A stretch of 33,994 nucleotides of DNA from contig JANQIV010000133.1 in assembly GCA_028282005.1 (NCBI GenBank), positions 1 to 33,994 of the forward strand, given 5' to 3'. Positions 20,682 through 26,395 of the stretch are shown here, piece by piece. The translations under genes and the position numbers were made by a program. The notes under the pieces were generated by a model that had not been told where the DNA came from, searched no databases, and saw only the letters and a list, made by a program, of their open reading frames with translations. The stretch comes from Melioribacteraceae bacterium. Its GTDB lineage: Bacteria > Bacteroidota > Ignavibacteria > Ignavibacteriales > Melioribacteraceae. Position 1 is the first letter of the stretch. The number at the start of each line of letters is the position of its first letter.

Positions 20682-22049
20682 ATGTCAATTTCATTATTTC
20701 AATTTTCAATACCACTTTTAATAATAGGATTTCTGATACTAATCTCCTTTCTCTATTTTTCATTTTTATCACTAAAAGAAAAGGAGCCAAGAGCAGCAAA
20801 CCTTCTTTTGTTTTCAGCACTTATATTTTCAATCCCTTTTTTTAACACAGCTCTTTTTGATTTTCAATTCAGAGATTTAGCCGCATGGGTATTGTTTTCT
20901 GTAACCATTATTTCTTTGATGATTTTTGTGATACCGGTAAAATTTAAAAAGAAACAAACTTCGGAAACTCCGAACTCAAAAATTGACGAACGAAACATTA
21001 TGTTTTCTCGAAGGCTGTTAAAAGAAGGCGACGGCAAATTTGAAGAGTATTACTCAAAAAATCCCGAAAAGAAAATTGCAGATGATGAATTCAGAAAACA
21101 GCCCGGGCTGCTTCAGCAGAAAACAAGTTATTACCACAAAGAAATGTTCACTTCAGCAGATGCTACTTTTTTTGTAGTTGATGCACTAAAGTTTAAAGTG
21201 AATGGCGAAGTAAATTCGGAAAAGAAAAATTACGATCCGCAAAAAATTACTACTTATATAAAAGAGTGGACAAAACATCTCGGAGCTTTAGATTGTGGAA
21301 TTACGGAATTAAAAGATTACCACAAATATTCAGTTGCCGGAAGAAATTTTAATTACGGCGAAGAAATAAATTTGAATCACAAATACGCAATTGCATTTAC
21401 TGTTGAAATGGATTACGAAATGGTGAAAGCTGCGCCGGCCGGGCCGATCGTGATGGAATCATCCAAACAGTATTTAATGTCTGGTGCGATTGCTGTTCAG
21501 CTTGCCGAGTTTATTCGTCAGCTTGGATACCCCGCACTTGCTCACATTGACGGCAATTACCAGGTTGTATGTCCGCTTGTTGCCCGCGATGCCGGACTCG
21601 GGGAAATTGGAAGAATGGGTTTATTGATGACACCAAAACAAGGCCCGCGCGTGAGAATCGCAGTTGTTACAACCGACTTACCTTTAAAAATTGATGACAG
21701 AAAAAGAGATGACTCAGTAATAGATTTTTGTATAGATTGTAAAAAGTGTGCGGATACTTGCCCGAGCCAGGCAATATCTTTTGAAGAGCAAATAGAAATT
21801 GACGGTGCAGTACGCTGGCAAATTAATTCCGAAGCTTGCTTTACTTTTTGGTACACTTCCGGCACAGACTGCGGAAGGTGCATGTCGGTCTGCCCTTACT
21901 CTCATGAAGATAATATACTGCACAGCTTAGTGCGGGGAGCAATTAAAAGATCTGACATCGTCAGAAAAGTTGCTGTACCACTCGATGATTTTTTATACGG
22001 AAGAAAACCGGTTCCGCTTGATCCTCCAATTTGGACAAATGTAGATTAG
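20682..22049 (+). CDS. Membrane-anchored reductive-dehalogenase-like iron-sulfur protein
   Basis: A 455-aa protein. Residues 1-88 form three hydrophobic helices (about 7-31, 40-58, 66-86), like the separate RdhB anchor. Residues about 150-455 match the RdhA corrinoid/Fe-S core: GRNFNYGEEINLNHKYAIAF, VEMDYEMVKAAPAGP with Tyr245 at the position of the catalytic tyrosine of characterised RdhA proteins, and GLGEIGRMGLLMTPKQGPRV. Two cluster motifs follow: C350-x2-C353-x2-C356-x3-C360P, and C386 then C397-x2-C400-x3-C404P. No twin-arginine signal is present. RdhA enzymes use a cobamide to remove halogens; the fold is shared with epoxyqueuosine reductase. Activity here is inference. The ATG directly follows a terminator T-tract with no usual Shine-Dalgarno. 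No other in-frame ATG, GTG or TTG lies just upstream. Confidence 0.82.
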   Translation: MSISLFQFSIPLLIIGFLILISFLYFSFLSLKEKEPRAANLLLFSALIFSIPFFNTALFDFQFRDLAAWVLFSVTIISLMIFVIPVKFKKKQTSETPNSKIDERNIMFSRRLLKEGDGKFEEYYSKNPEKKIADDEFRKQPGLLQQKTSYYHKEMFTSADATFFVVDALKFKVNGEVNSEKKNYDPQKITTYIKEWTKHLGALDCGITELKDYHKYSVAGRNFNYGEEINLNHKYAIAFTVEMDYEMVKAAPAGPIVMESSKQYLMSGAIAVQLAEFIRQLGYPALAHIDGNYQVVCPLVARDAGLGEIGRMGLLMTPKQGPRVRIAVVTTDLPLKIDDRKRDDSVIDFCIDCKKCADTCPSQAISFEEQIEIDGAVRWQINSEACFTFWYTSGTDCGRCMSVCPYSHEDNILHSLVRGAIKRSDIVRKVAVPLDDFLYGRKPVPLDPPIWTNVD

Positions 22050-22060
22050 GCAAAGTATCT

Positions 22061-22738
22061 TTATTTAGTTTGGTACTCTTCTGTTTTAGATAATAGTCTC
22101 AATTGTGATACTTCAGCACTATTTGTAGAATTATATTTATATGTAGCCCAGTCCGGTTGATAATCATTTATTTGATTACCCCAAACTGTCCATCCCTGCC
22201 TTTTACCTCTTGAAAACAATTCAATATATGGTCCTGGACTGCACGATTCAATAATATCGTAAAGTTCATCTGGTTTTCTCGAATGTTCCCTTTTCCTTGT
22301 TCTAACTATGTTAACTTGTGTTCGTCCAGGTTTTAACGTACGCATACTTCCTTTTACACCAAAAAGAACAACTTCTGTTACATTTCTAAAATAGAAGCCT
22401 ACGCCCCTTCCATCGGGACCACCATCTTTTCGAATTTTATACCAAACAATATTAGTCTTATAATTGAATCCCCATTTTTTCATAGTTTCAAGACCTTCTG
22501 CAAGTAAAGCATTTGGCACCCATAAATATAAATGGCAATTTTCATCTGCTATACTGTTCACAGGTATATCAAGAATTTCCTGTAAAGTTAAAGTTGGATA
22601 TCTAGACAATCTTTTATGTTCAGGAGCAACTTTGCCAGTGCTATTTTGAAAACGCCATGGAGGATCCGCAAGAATAGTCTGATACTTTCCATCTATTTCA
22701 TGAACAAAATCTTGAGCTGCAGTAGTTTTATTATTCAT
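22061..22738 (-). CDS. MT-A70 family DNA adenine methyltransferase
   Basis: A 225-aa SAM-dependent methyltransferase with the catalytic DPPW at 25-28 (YQTILADPPWRF) and later family segments (LYLWVPNALLAEGLETMKKW, TEVVLFGVKGSMRT, GPYIELFSRGKRQGWTVWGN). MT-A70 enzymes make N6-methyladenine; bacterial members often come from phages or restriction-modification systems. Here it follows the BglII-type endonuclease gene after 2 bp, with AAAGGATG upstream of its ATG, so it is most likely the protective half of a type II system. Recognition sequence unknown. Confidence 0.9.
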   Translation of the reverse strand: MNNKTTAAQDFVHEIDGKYQTILADPPWRFQNSTGKVAPEHKRLSRYPTLTLQEILDIPVNSIADENCHLYLWVPNALLAEGLETMKKWGFNYKTNIVWYKIRKDGGPDGRGVGFYFRNVTEVVLFGVKGSMRTLKPGRTQVNIVRTRKREHSRKPDELYDIIESCSPGPYIELFSRGKRQGWTVWGNQINDYQPDWATYKYNSTNSAEVSQLRLLSKTEEYQTK

Positions 22739-22740
22739 TT

Positions 22741-23331
22741 TTAAACATCCTTTTCAAATAGGGATTTTTTTATCCCCAATACCAATATTGGACAACCTCC
22801 TCCACTTCCACCTTGGATTCGAGGTAAAAGCTTTCCCATGTGAGTTGTCGAAGCACCGTAAGATGATCCTCTCCCTAATTCATTAAATATTTCTTGCAGT
22901 TCATCGCTACGAGTAATAATAATTCCGACACTAATAGCACGTAAATCAAATAATAATCTGAAGTTATTTAAATCTCTATCATAAAATGGATCTTTATTGT
23001 TCCATTCTATTTCTAATGCTATTCTATTTTTATAACAATCAATTTTATGTGTAGGAGAAAGATTAACATCATTATCAACAACCATTTTTGTATCAAATGA
23101 TTTTTCACTCCAACCGAATTCATTTAATTTTGAATCCAACCATTCTGCTACTAATGATTTTCTTCCACCACCAATTGTAATCCAACTTTTTTTCAGTCTA
23201 AATCCATTAAGTGTTTCCAATAAATTGGACCATTCTTCAGGAAAATCTCCGTGTAGAATTGTTGTTGCATGTTTCCATTCGTGAATTTCATAATTATTTC
23301 GAACGAACTCCGGGAAAAGATCGATTGACAT
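22741..23331 (-). CDS. BglII/BstYI-type restriction endonuclease
   Basis: About 196 aa from the ATG at 23329-23331; a TTG 18 bases upstream is less likely. The segment IDCYKNRIALEIEWNNKDPF, followed by YDRDLNNFRLLF, is the signature of the BglII/BstYI endonuclease family. Asp98, Glu107 and Glu109 (from this start) probably form the metal-binding PD-(D/E)xK-type site. Family members cut AGATCT or RGATCY, but the specificity here is not proven. It is the first gene of a two-gene unit with the MT-A70 methyltransferase. Endonuclease before methyltransferase without a controller gene is noteworthy, because the modification enzyme usually has to act first. Confidence 0.85.
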   Translation of the reverse strand: MSIDLFPEFVRNNYEIHEWKHATTILHGDFPEEWSNLLETLNGFRLKKSWITIGGGRKSLVAEWLDSKLNEFGWSEKSFDTKMVVDNDVNLSPTHKIDCYKNRIALEIEWNNKDPFYDRDLNNFRLLFDLRAISVGIIITRSDELQEIFNELGRGSSYGASTTHMGKLLPRIQGGSGGGCPILVLGIKKSLFEKDV

Positions 23332-23396
23332 AAGTATTACCAAAAACAATGATTATTGAGAGATATAATTATACAAAAAATTCATTATAATTTATA

Positions 23397-23633
23397 TTAT
23401 AAACTATTCTTCATATCCTCAAATTCTTCTTTAGTAATTTCACCTTTGGCGTAGCGTTTCTTTAAAATATCTAAGGCTGATTCTTCCTGAGAATCGCTGC
23501 TACTTTCGTTCATAAATCTACCTTTGCCACCAAACATTTTTCCCATTCCAAATCTGAAAAACAGAAAACACAAAATCATCATCACTACTGGAATTATCCA
23601 CATTCCGCTGCTGAAAAATTTTTCCGGTCCCAT
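23397..23633 (-). CDS. SHOCT-domain membrane protein
   Basis: A 78-aa protein with one N-terminal transmembrane helix (about 12-28, WIIPVVMMILCFLFFRFG), a Gly/Met/Lys-rich linker and a C-terminal SHOCT motif (ALDILKKRYAKGEITKEEFE). SHOCT is a short oligomerisation domain common in small membrane proteins. AGAGGAGAA precedes the ATG. It is the third same-strand gene after the DUF302 and methionine-rich genes, with a 75-bp gap holding a dispersed repeat. It may therefore belong to the same sigma-54-type operon or have its own promoter. Its Met content (WIIPVVMM, GMGKMFGG) fits the operon theme but is not extreme. Confidence 0.85.
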   Translation of the reverse strand: MGPEKFFSSGMWIIPVVMMILCFLFFRFGMGKMFGGKGRFMNESSSDSQEESALDILKKRYAKGEITKEEFEDMKNSL

Positions 23634-23656
23634 TTAGTTCTCCTCTTGTGTTTAAC

Positions 23657-23696
23657 GGATCCCTTTTCTTCGACTGCGCTCAGAATGACGGGATCC
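23657..23696. repeat. Dispersed TTCTGAGCG-type intergenic repeat with terminal GGATCCC inverted repeats
   Basis: A core CTTCGACTGCGCTCAGAATG (minus strand: CATTCTGAGCGCAGTCGAAG) is flanked by GGATCCC (23657-23663) and GGGATCC (23690-23696). The core matches a short intergenic sequence found dispersed in many bacterial genomes, recognised here from memory. It lies between the methionine-rich and SHOCT genes. It stands out from its AT-rich surroundings. Confidence 0.75.
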
Positions 23697-23708
23697 TATT
23701 TTCAAAAA

Positions 23709-24314
23709 TTAATTATTTATTGTTTCTTCACGGTCTGCGGTTTCCGGTTTCCCGTCTCCGTTCAGTATTTTATTCATTTTTTCTACAAACTCTTTTTTAG
23801 TTTCTTCTTCCATATATGGCAGCATACCTTCAAGACAGTGGGGCATCATAGTTGCCATCATTTTCGGCATAAGTTTTCTAAGCTCTTCTTGCTCCATCAT
23901 TTTCGGCAGTAAACGTTTTGGGAAGTTTTCCATTTTCTGCATGTGTTCTTCGGTCATTATAACGGGCATAATTTTATTCATCATTACCGGCATCATAATT
24001 TCCGTGAATGGCATCATGTTAAGCATTGCATCCGGCAGCTTTTTAACAATCTTTGGAAATACATTTTCCCAATTTGCTAATAGCTCAGCTACAGAGTTTA
24101 TCCCCTTCAAAATGTGTGGGAAGATCTTCTTCAGCACATTAAAAATATCCATCAGCGTAATTTGGTCCATCATTTGAGGAATCATCTTCAGCATTGTTTC
24201 CGCCATGTTTACATCTTGCATCATCATCGGCATCATTTTCAGCATCATTTCTTGTTTCTTTTCAATACTCATTCTGCCGATCATTGCTTCCATCATTTTA
24301 TCCATTAGCGCCAT
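23709..24314 (-). CDS. Methionine-rich protein of unknown function
   Basis: About 201 aa from the ATG at 24312-24314, which is preceded by AGGAGGGAG. The ATG 18 bases earlier lies upstream of that site and is rejected. About 40 of 201 residues are Met, in clusters such as LKMMPMMM, LKMIPQMM, EIMMPVMM and KLMPKMMATMM. The chain is otherwise helical with repeated LxxMPxMM units and has only one Cys (MMPHCLEG). No signal peptide or membrane helix is evident, so it is probably cytoplasmic. The start lies one base after the stop of the DUF302 gene, indicating translational coupling. No family was recognised. Met clusters can bind Cu(I) or act as an oxidant sink; neither role is shown here. Confidence 0.82.
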   Translation of the reverse strand: MALMDKMMEAMIGRMSIEKKQEMMLKMMPMMMQDVNMAETMLKMIPQMMDQITLMDIFNVLKKIFPHILKGINSVAELLANWENVFPKIVKKLPDAMLNMMPFTEIMMPVMMNKIMPVIMTEEHMQKMENFPKRLLPKMMEQEELRKLMPKMMATMMPHCLEGMLPYMEEETKKEFVEKMNKILNGDGKPETADREETINN

Positions 24315-24315
24315 T

Positions 24316-24858
24316 TTATTCTCCCTCCTCATTTACAATGATATCTTTCAACACAGTGTGCAGATCGTCTGATGCAGTTCCCATTATGCTTGAAACTTTT
24401 TCGCCGAACATTTTGCCCATCATTTTAATGTTCATCCAGCTTATATAAACTTTTCCGTTTTCTTCGTAGACTGCGATCTGCATTGGCATCATTGCAGCGA
24501 GTTTTTTGTTCACTTTTAGTATTTCATAGGCTTTTCGTGGAATGCACATTGACACAGATCCAACCGGATTGGAATCAGCATAATCAAAGTTTTTTTCAAG
24601 TTCTTTTCTGTCCATTATATCCGGCCTGTACCAACCAAATGATTCTCCGCCGGCTTTGATTTCCTGAAGCGTCTTTTCGAAACCGAATTTACTTTGATGA
24701 GTTACGAACATCATCTCACTAATTTGTCCGCTTATTAATTCCATTATTTCCGAGCCTTTGATTCTTTTCATCATTTCCGGCATAAGTTTCAGCATGGTGC
24801 CCTGCTTTTCATCCGGACTCATTGAATTCATCATGCCTTTCATCATTGAGTTCATCAT
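24316..24858 (-). CDS. DUF302 domain protein with methionine-rich N-terminus
   Basis: A 180-aa protein. Residues 1-50 are methionine-rich (MMNSMMKGMMNSMSPDEKQG, then LKLMPEMMKR), sharing the LKxMPxMM unit with the next gene's product. Residues about 60-160 form a DUF302 domain (FEKTLQEIKAGGESFGW, NPVGSVSMCIPRKAYEILK, MPMQIAVYEENGKVYISWMN, LHTVL). DUF302 proteins are small and poorly characterised. The domain is cytoplasmic here, because no export signal is seen. AGAGGG lies nine bases before the ATG at 24856-24858. The gene is first in the operon and lies 172 bp from the sigma-54 activator gene, with a -24/-12-like promoter and two inverted repeats between them. Confidence 0.87.
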   Translation of the reverse strand: MMNSMMKGMMNSMSPDEKQGTMLKLMPEMMKRIKGSEIMELISGQISEMMFVTHQSKFGFEKTLQEIKAGGESFGWYRPDIMDRKELEKNFDYADSNPVGSVSMCIPRKAYEILKVNKKLAAMMPMQIAVYEENGKVYISWMNIKMMGKMFGEKVSSIMGTASDDLHTVLKDIIVNEEGE

Positions 24859-24891: not shown

Positions 24892-24907
24892 GTCATGTAT
24901 CGTGCCG
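24892..24907 (-). promoter_or_regulatory. Candidate sigma-54 (-24/-12) promoter of the DUF302/Met-rich operon
   Basis: The minus strand reads CGGCACG-ATAC-ATGAC against consensus TGGCACG-N4-TTGCA. The -24 box matches six of seven, including GG, and the spacing is right. The -12 box keeps TG but has A where consensus has C. Transcription would start near 24881, giving a leader of about 23 nt that contains the AGAGGG site. An adjacent sigma-54 activator gene supports the call; the weak -12 box lowers confidence. Confidence 0.5.
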
Positions 24908-24974: not shown

Positions 24975-24995
24975 ATTGTTACTTTTTGTAACAAT
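24975..24995. promoter_or_regulatory. Activator-site candidate 1 (perfect inverted repeat)
   Basis: ATTGTTAC-TTTTT-GTAACAAT is a perfect inverted repeat with 8-bp arms. Its centre is about 104 bp upstream of the predicted operon start, the usual distance for a sigma-54 enhancer site. It shares GTTACTTTTnGTAAY with site 2. Confidence 0.6.
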
Positions 24996-25010
24996 GGAAA
25001 ATGAGTAGAT

Positions 25011-25025
25011 GTTACTTTTGGTAAT
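25011..25025. promoter_or_regulatory. Activator-site candidate 2
   Basis: GTTACTTTTGGTAAT repeats the core of site 1 with two changes. The centres are 33 bp apart, about three helical turns, so both sites face the same side of the DNA. It lies immediately after the stop of the activator gene. Confidence 0.55.
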
Positions 25026-25030
25026 GCTCG

Positions 25031-26395
25031 TCAGTTTGAGATTGGTCGATTAATTCCCCAGCGCTTTCGTTTTTCCCAAAGACTTTTACGGCTGATACCC
25101 AAAATCTCAGCAATCTTCTCTTCGTTGTATTCAGTCTGCAAAGAAATAATTGACTGCTTTGTGAATTCTTCAATGGATATAAACCCACTTTTTTTAATCT
25201 TCTCTTTAGGTTGATTTAGAATTTTTGCCGGGAGATGTTCTTCAGTAATTAAACCATTATCTTCTGCAATATGCAATGAATATTCAACTGCATTTTGAAC
25301 TTCGCGAACATTGCCGGGCCAGTTGTAGTCCATTAATACTTTTAAAGTGGTTGAAGAAATTCCGTTTACATTGCGATTGTTTTCTTTACAAAATTTTTGG
25401 AGAAAGTGATTTGCCAGCAAGGCTATATCTTCTTTTCTTTCACGCAGCGGTGGAATGTAAATGGGGATTACATTCAAGCGGAAAAACAAATCCTCTCTGA
25501 ATAACCCGTCTTTAACCGCTTCTTCAAGGTCACGGTTTGTAGCTGAAATTATTCTAACATCAAACTTCTGAACTTTTGTATCACCGACTCTGCGGCATGT
25601 GCCTTCCTGCAGAAATCGTAAAAGCTTTGATTGAAGTGGCTGTGGAATTTCACCGACTTCATCCAAAAACAATGTCCCGCCATCTGCAGTGGATATTAAT
25701 CCGGGATGATTTCTGAATGCCCCGGTAAATGCACCTTTAACATGCCCGAATAATTCCGACTCCAAAAGGTTTTCCGGAATGGCACTACAGTTAACAGAAA
25801 TGAATGGTTCTTTGCGTCTGTTTGAATTTGAGTGAATCGCCCTCGCGATAAGTTCTTTGCCTGTGCCCGATTCTCCGGTAATTAAAACAGTGCTATCGGT
25901 CGGAGCAATTTTTTTTATCACATTAAAAATCTGTTTTATACTTTTTGATTGAGTGATAATGCTTTCAAAATCTACCTGACGTTCGATTTCCCTTTTTAGT
26001 GTGGCACACTGTTCGGTTAAAAACATTTGCTCTGTTACATCACGGACAATTTCAACAGCACCAATTATATTGCCGTCTTCATCCAATAAAGGCCCGGATG
26101 AACATTCCATCCACATTACATTACCGTTGCAACCAACAGTATCTGAAAGTACTTTACGTGGTTTTCCATCTTCAAGAACTTTAAGAATCAAACAATCAAT
26201 ACACGGCTCAGCTCTGTTGCGATAGGCTTCGTAGCAAAGCCTGCCTTTTATATCACCAAACTTTTTCTTAATAGCTTCATTTTGAAATAGCACATTGAGA
26301 TTTTTATCGATGATCGTAATACCATCATCAACAGTATCCAAGACAGATCTTAGGAGAGCTTCTTCTTTCAGACTGAATATATTAATCATACTCAC
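25031..26395 (-). CDS. PAS-domain sigma-54-dependent transcriptional activator
   Basis: A 454-aa enhancer-binding protein. The N-terminal PAS domain (about 10-125) carries a cysteine motif: Cys54, Cys65 and Cys68 in [18 protein letters not shown]. The AAA+ domain (about 145-370) has Walker A GESGTGKE (174-181), the sigma-54 contact loop GAFTGA (221-226), Walker B TLFLDE (241-246) and arginine finger [10 protein letters not shown] Fis-type helix-turn-helix ends the protein ([20 protein letters not shown], 427-446). The cysteine motif is common in PAS regulators and could bind a metal, Fe-S cluster or heme. The start is GTG at 26393-26395, or ATG six bases later. It is a full-length, intact activator and most likely controls the adjacent DUF302/Met-rich operon. 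Confidence 0.95.

Follow-up and report, generated by a model that had tools for sequence, protein, structure and literature searches.

A methionine-rich protein family with DUF302 and SHOCT partners as a candidate cytoplasmic soft-metal assembly

A compact cassette of three genes (~1.5 kb) in the genome of a Melioribacteraceae bacterium encodes a DUF302 protein, a highly methionine-rich protein and a SHOCT protein, and related sets in distant phyla suggest a portable system. We analyzed it within a window of 33,994 nucleotides, the whole stretch of DNA under study. Our preferred reading, to which we assign a probability of roughly 0.38, is that the products may form a cytoplasmic, membrane-tethered assembly that is held together by shared Met helices and binds Cu(I), Ag(I) or a similar soft metal. 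Among methionine-rich proteins that deal with metals or oxidants, the best-known ones are exported. A Met-helix family that stays in the cytoplasm, keeps its methionine positions and is paired with DUF302 would be a new use of methionine chemistry. It would also offer a way into what DUF302, a widespread domain of unknown function, does.

The genes are arranged on the minus strand in the order PAS/sigma-54 activator, DUF302, Met-rich, SHOCT (Table 1). When the open reading frames were rechecked, the positions given for the three cassette genes in the initial annotation proved correct, as did the single base that it had placed between the DUF302 stop and the Met-rich ATG. All three cassette starts are preceded by a Shine-Dalgarno-like sequence. 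An alternative start would yield a Met-rich protein of 207 aa; the 201-aa start is preferred because the Shine-Dalgarno sequence favours it. Judged by gene spacing, the DUF302, Met-rich and SHOCT genes are likely to constitute one operon.

Table 1 Features of the cassette locus, in coordinates of the window
Feature	Position	Strand	Basis
PAS/sigma-54 activator (AAA+), Fis-like HTH just below the Pfam cut-off	25031..26395	-	Pfam, NCBIfam
DUF302 protein, 180 aa, Met-rich N-terminal unit (aa 1-50)	24316..24858	-	PF03625; same-architecture homologues in SAR202 and Acidobacteriota
Met-rich protein, 201 aa, 40 Met, predicted all-helical, C160 in MPHC	23709..24314	-	Homologues
SHOCT protein, 78 aa, hydrophobic helix near the N-terminus, then SHOCT domain	23397..23633	-	PF09851, hydropathy
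Palindrome ATTGTTAC-TTTTT-GTAACAAT, candidate regulator site	24975..24995		Pattern count in the window
Imperfect second palindrome copy TGTTACTTTTGGTAA	25010..25024		Start-to-start 33 bp from the first palindrome

The methionine content of the central protein, put at about 40 residues in the earlier description, is exactly 40 of 201 (19.9%), compared with a median of 2.4% for the open reading frames of the window; after the two cassette genes, the next richest frame of at least 100 aa reaches 5.5%. The protein had been described as built of LKxMPxMM-like units. The exact unit occurs once in it and once in the DUF302 protein, and the other Met clusters are degenerate MPxxM or MMP versions. It has no family match in Pfam, NCBIfam or PADLOC, and PADLOC gives no defence match for the cassette. 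A phage protein was also considered and dropped, as there was no credible PHROG match. By hydropathy and sequence inspection, the Met-rich and DUF302 proteins show no signal peptide and no TM-like segment, which agrees with the earlier statement that both lack an export signal and supports a cytoplasmic location; the Met-rich protein is apparently cytoplasmic. AlphaFold models are mainly helical at low confidence (mean pLDDT 52-53), and a PDB profile search with the Met-rich family returned weak matches only, mainly to designed helical proteins.

Homologues were sought with a codon-level scan for the unit M-x-K-[LMV]-M-P-x-M-M across a collection of 84,980 species genomes. The scan recovered at least two true homologues, in SAR202 Chloroflexota and in the Olavius-associated Delta 3; most of its matches were chance or unrelated (YidC-like and SRP54-like sequences, oxidoreductase tails). 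A profile search added one further Desulfobacterota protein and, from a sample of Acidobacteriota (the phylum to which an Aminicenantes genome belongs), one genome. Homologues are now recognised in SAR202 Chloroflexota, in two Desulfobacterota and in this one Acidobacteriota genome, the taxa being those given by record titles or by the phylum sampled. The SAR202 locus is collinear, with a Met-rich protein of 215 aa, a Met-extended DUF302 protein of 226 aa and a SHOCT protein of 80 aa, the DUF302 and SHOCT genes overlapping. In the Acidobacteriota copy the gene order is that of the window, with a 17-base overlap between DUF302 and Met-rich, and the Met-rich protein shares 51% identity with its window counterpart. 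The Met-rich protein stands alone, with neither DUF302 nor SHOCT nearby, in two of the five genomes, both Desulfobacterota. A lack of co-occurrence, named in the initial annotation as grounds for refutation, is not what the genomes show: the trio recurs in SAR202 and the pair in Acidobacteriota, although the two Desulfobacterota have the Met-rich gene only. The absence of neighbours from some copies could reflect assembly gaps, because some of the genomes are fragmented MAGs.

Elsewhere the searches were negative. A protein search of 58 close relatives and 395 genomes of the window's phylum gave only borderline, unrelated matches, and a direct protein scan of the genome contigs collection found no Met-rich relative. 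None of 388 genomes was positive in the Pseudomonadota sample, for which there was no positive control. Viral contigs returned noise only, and plasmids held no Met-rich relative and two plain DUF302 proteins. Outside the starting genomes, 2 of ~1,750 sampled genomes were positive. The cassette is rare, and the six Met-rich homologues and three cassettes compared here are a small set. Its patchy spread, together with the high identity between phyla, suggests horizontal transfer, and the cassette is probably horizontally shared.

The Acidobacteriota genome also encodes a stand-alone Met-rich paralogue elsewhere (L192:4171-4593, plus strand; 140 aa, 28.6% Met), with the sequence features MSKEEK..MMPKMM..GGGEGPGG..MPLC. 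With a Desulfobacterota protein (L181:6409-6861) it makes up a shorter Met-rich subfamily. An Actinomycetota open reading frame (L109:7400-7999, minus strand) encodes 199 aa, of which 17% are Met, and has MMPxMM units; it does not match the Met-rich query.

Homologues lacking the Met clusters were looked for, and the homologues keep them. Methionine is retained at 66% in aligned homologues, compared with 28% for leucine and 18-20% for isoleucine and valine. Between the window and SAR202 proteins there are 27 Met-Met matches where 17.3 ± 2.0 are expected when Met is shuffled among hydrophobic positions, and extra matching is seen in 15 out of 15 pairs (each p ~0.06 or less; the pairs are not independent). 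Since these matches exceed what the hydrophobic pattern predicts, a Met-specific role is indicated. In addition, each of the six Met-rich proteins has a single cysteine close to its C-terminus, in an MPxC motif; in the Delta 3 protein its position differs by about one repeat. Cross-phylum homologues and conserved positions exclude a chance or low-complexity artefact.

Nearly as likely as the soft-metal role is a "Met bristle" assembly or chaperone role in which metal has no part. Here a flexible hydrophobic surface of methionines, comparable to that of the SRP54 M domain, would bind hydrophobic peptides, membrane or partner helices, and DUF302 and SHOCT would complete a membrane-proximal complex. 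The hydrophobic helical moment of the Met-rich protein, calculated with Met counted together with L, I, V, F and W, is 0.43, against 0.26 ± 0.03 in shuffled sequences (0 of 500 shuffles reach the observed value); for Met alone the moment is unremarkable (99 of 500). Amphipathic helices with Met among the residues of the hydrophobic face would also fit hydrophobic packing, which counts against the metal reading. Further support comes from the C-terminal MPxxM part. In an hhalign comparison (probability 63%, E 7e-5; shuffled and reversed controls negative) it resembles the tails, rich in Met and Pro, of FAD/Fe-S oxidoreductases of ~1030 aa, where a metal store would hardly be expected. SHOCT, moreover, is described as an anchoring or localisation domain in work cited in PMC10694973. 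Against this role, the identity of the methionines is kept beyond what hydrophobicity requires, and neither the lone conserved cysteine nor the Cys-to-Met exchange in DUF302 described below is predicted by it. The SRP54 M domain is likewise cytoplasmic and made of Met-rich amphipathic helices, but the Met-rich protein shares no sequence match with it, has no GTPase or RNA partner and carries the lone MPxC cysteine; Pfam detects no M domain in the window protein or in the other Met-rich members.

The oxidoreductases themselves (L106, L082, L126, L139, L182, L183 and others) have FAD-binding, 4Fe-4S and CCG domains and a C-terminal tail of ~130 aa with MPxxMP repeats. They occur in Actinomycetota, Bacillota, Desulfobacterota and Methanosarcinales, with Pfam domains checked in L182 only. 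Whereas the tail is part of an enzyme and has no MPxC cysteine, the Met-rich protein is free-standing; the likeness is a weak profile match, upheld by the controls, that covers the C-terminal MPxxM segment.

The DUF302 partner is assigned with confidence by domain score (PF03625, 39.5 bits against a cut-off of 23; 45.9 bits in SAR202). It had been called Met-tailed, a description that needs revision: there is no tail, and the Met region occupies the N-terminus, with 14 methionines within the first 50 residues. The idea that this region and the Met-rich protein have a unit in common is upheld, not only by the LKxMPxMM that each contains but also by sequence comparison: queried with the Met-rich protein, the window genome yields the DUF302 N-terminus at 38% identity (E 0.002). 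The DUF302 proteins inspected in close relatives of the window genome are without the Met N-terminus, and several relatives in the window's own family carry N-terminal signal-like segments. In SAR202, the DUF302 N-terminus resembles its own Met-rich partner at 54% and its counterparts in the two other cassette genomes at 24-28%, a pattern that fits co-evolution or repeated exchange; the window pair has no such closer resemblance to its own partner. The view that the two proteins belong together is now well supported by the pair in Acidobacteriota, the trio in Chloroflexota, the retained Met clusters and the SAR202 likeness.

The cassette DUF302 proteins also differ from the rest of the family in a pair of cysteines. 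The first (C-x-P) is present in all three. The second ([MLIV]PC) is methionine in all three, compared with cysteine in 14 of 15 plain DUF302 proteins (the single exception has lysine) and in the solved relative 1q9u; in the window protein the position is M126, within MMPM. The cysteine pair is a feature observed here and not a curated family criterion, and the PF03625 assignment stands. In sum, the window partner has the DUF302 domain but adds a Met-rich N-terminus, lacks an export signal and replaces the second cysteine with methionine.

A further reading is a role in sulfur-compound handling, with DUF302 acting on sulfur species and the Met-rich protein as scaffold or acceptor. DUF302 genes of unknown function are located between soxA and soxB in Acidithiobacillia (PMC5037610), and a Salinibacter plasmid DUF302 gene lies near DsrE-family genes. 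Loss of the second conserved cysteine in the cassette and the lack of recognised sulfur-oxidation genes beside any copy make this role very improbable. Among open-access papers we found none linking DUF302 to methionine-rich proteins or SHOCT, which does not imply that such a link is unpublished.

The third gene encodes a SHOCT domain (PF09851, 39.9 bits against a cut-off of 27) in a protein 53% identical to its SAR202 counterpart. Hydropathy gives one TM-like segment in each SHOCT protein (KD19 2.2 in the window). As a modest control covering only ~1.5 kb on each side, the surroundings of 29 plain DUF302 loci contained no SHOCT signatures.

Returning to the soft-metal reading, its core would be a cytoplasmic protein of amphipathic Met-rich helices with the single MPxC cysteine near the C-terminus. 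Because the DUF302 N-terminus carries the same Met-helix unit, the two proteins most likely assemble by Met-Met helix packing, and the SHOCT protein, where present, would tether the pair to the inner membrane. The thioethers, the lone cysteine and the Cys-to-Met change in DUF302 would most likely form low-affinity sites of the Cu(I)/Ag(I) type, which could buffer or relay metal in the cytosol. Against this reading, cytosolic copper proteins mostly rely on cysteine, and the window Met-rich protein has a single one. Methionine and cysteine are both established Cu(I) ligands (review PMC7558416). From the position-specific methionines, the lone cysteine and the DUF302 exchange we lean towards soft-metal coordination in the cytosol. 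Further points against it are the Met-rich protein without DUF302 or SHOCT in two of five genomes, the failure to find a good -24/-12 site in the gap upstream of DUF302 and the low confidence of the models. Nor were genes for copper, silver or any other metal, such as P-type ATPase, CueR, Cus or multicopper oxidase, recognised next to a copy of the cassette or of its parts. A fuller version, a thioether soft-metal buffer or relay in which a free Met-helix protein works with a Met-grafted DUF302 on a SHOCT tether, in a cassette mobile between phyla, is rather unlikely. If true, it would place in the cytosol what Met-rich copper proteins do in the periplasm, and DUF302 would gain its first molecular role.

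Known copper proteins offer a partial parallel. CopM, with two DUF305 domains, and other periplasmic Met-rich copper proteins such as CusF have proposed Cu(I) ligands, but they are exported and their genes often neighbour those of copper regulators or pumps. In the window's Met-rich protein there is no sequence match to them, no DUF305 match in Pfam and no signal peptide by hydropathy. The nearest functional analogues are the periplasmic Met-rich peptides MrpX/BcrX (PMC8315932), which go with YedYZ/MsrPQ; they too are small bacterial proteins, very rich in Met and encoded in an operon of their own. Their periplasmic location, their MXKDX repeats and their link to genes for methionine sulfoxide reductases set them apart, whereas the cassette has no export signal and combines MPxxM helical units with DUF302 and SHOCT partners. 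The window Met-rich sequence contains no M-x-K-D-x, and no Msr domain was found among the neighbours examined.

MrpX/BcrX are thought to act as oxidant sinks (PMC8315932), and a cytoplasmic counterpart could be envisaged in which methionines react with peroxide or hypochlorous acid as scavengers, with methionine sulfoxide reductases restoring them. A methionine content of ~20% would suit such a sacrificial role, and so would a rubrerythrin gene that in the Acidobacteriota copy lies upstream, same strand, at a distance of ~0.45 kb. We nevertheless regard it as distinctly unlikely: no msrA, msrB or msrPQ is recognised beside any copy, the msrPQ-type linkage and MXKDX repeat of MrpX/BcrX are missing here, and a sink would need no specific Met positions, ordered helical pattern, or DUF302 or SHOCT partners.

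Regulation of the window copy may be local. The gap between the activator and DUF302 genes measures 172 bases and contains both palindromes, the one at 24975-24995 perfect and the copy at 25010-25024 near-identical. The pattern TGTTACNNNNNGTAA is expected 0.08 times in the window and is found only at these two sites, which could be activator sites; in the soft-metal model, the PAS/sigma-54 activator probably switches the operon through them. No convincing -24/-12 promoter (GG-N10-GC) was found in the gap: nothing there matches TGGCAY-N6-TTGC with up to two mismatches, and a weak CGGCACG-N4-ATGA at ~24893-24907 is without the -12 GC. Linkage to an adjacent sigma-54 activator, which the initial annotation proposed to check in other genomes, is not conserved: none lies beside the SAR202 or Acidobacteriota copies. 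The PAS region of the activator (25031-26395) contains clustered cysteines, a possible sensor of redox state or metal.

The surroundings of the cassette have features of their own. The Met-rich/SHOCT intergenic region holds TTCTTCGACTGCGCTCAGAATGAC at 23655-23697 with GGATCC on either side; it is present once in the window and has the look of a short insertion or dispersed repeat. The cassette is followed directly downstream (22061-23349, minus strand) by a BglII-type restriction endonuclease gene (PF09195) and then an MT-A70 methyltransferase gene, a compact restriction-modification pair; such pairs are frequent at mobile or variable sites. On the plus strand, 20682-22049 encodes a reductive dehalogenase-like protein (TIGR02486, 160.8 bits against a cut-off of 160.35) with N-terminal membrane helices and a ferredoxin domain, adjoining a DUF3179 gene.
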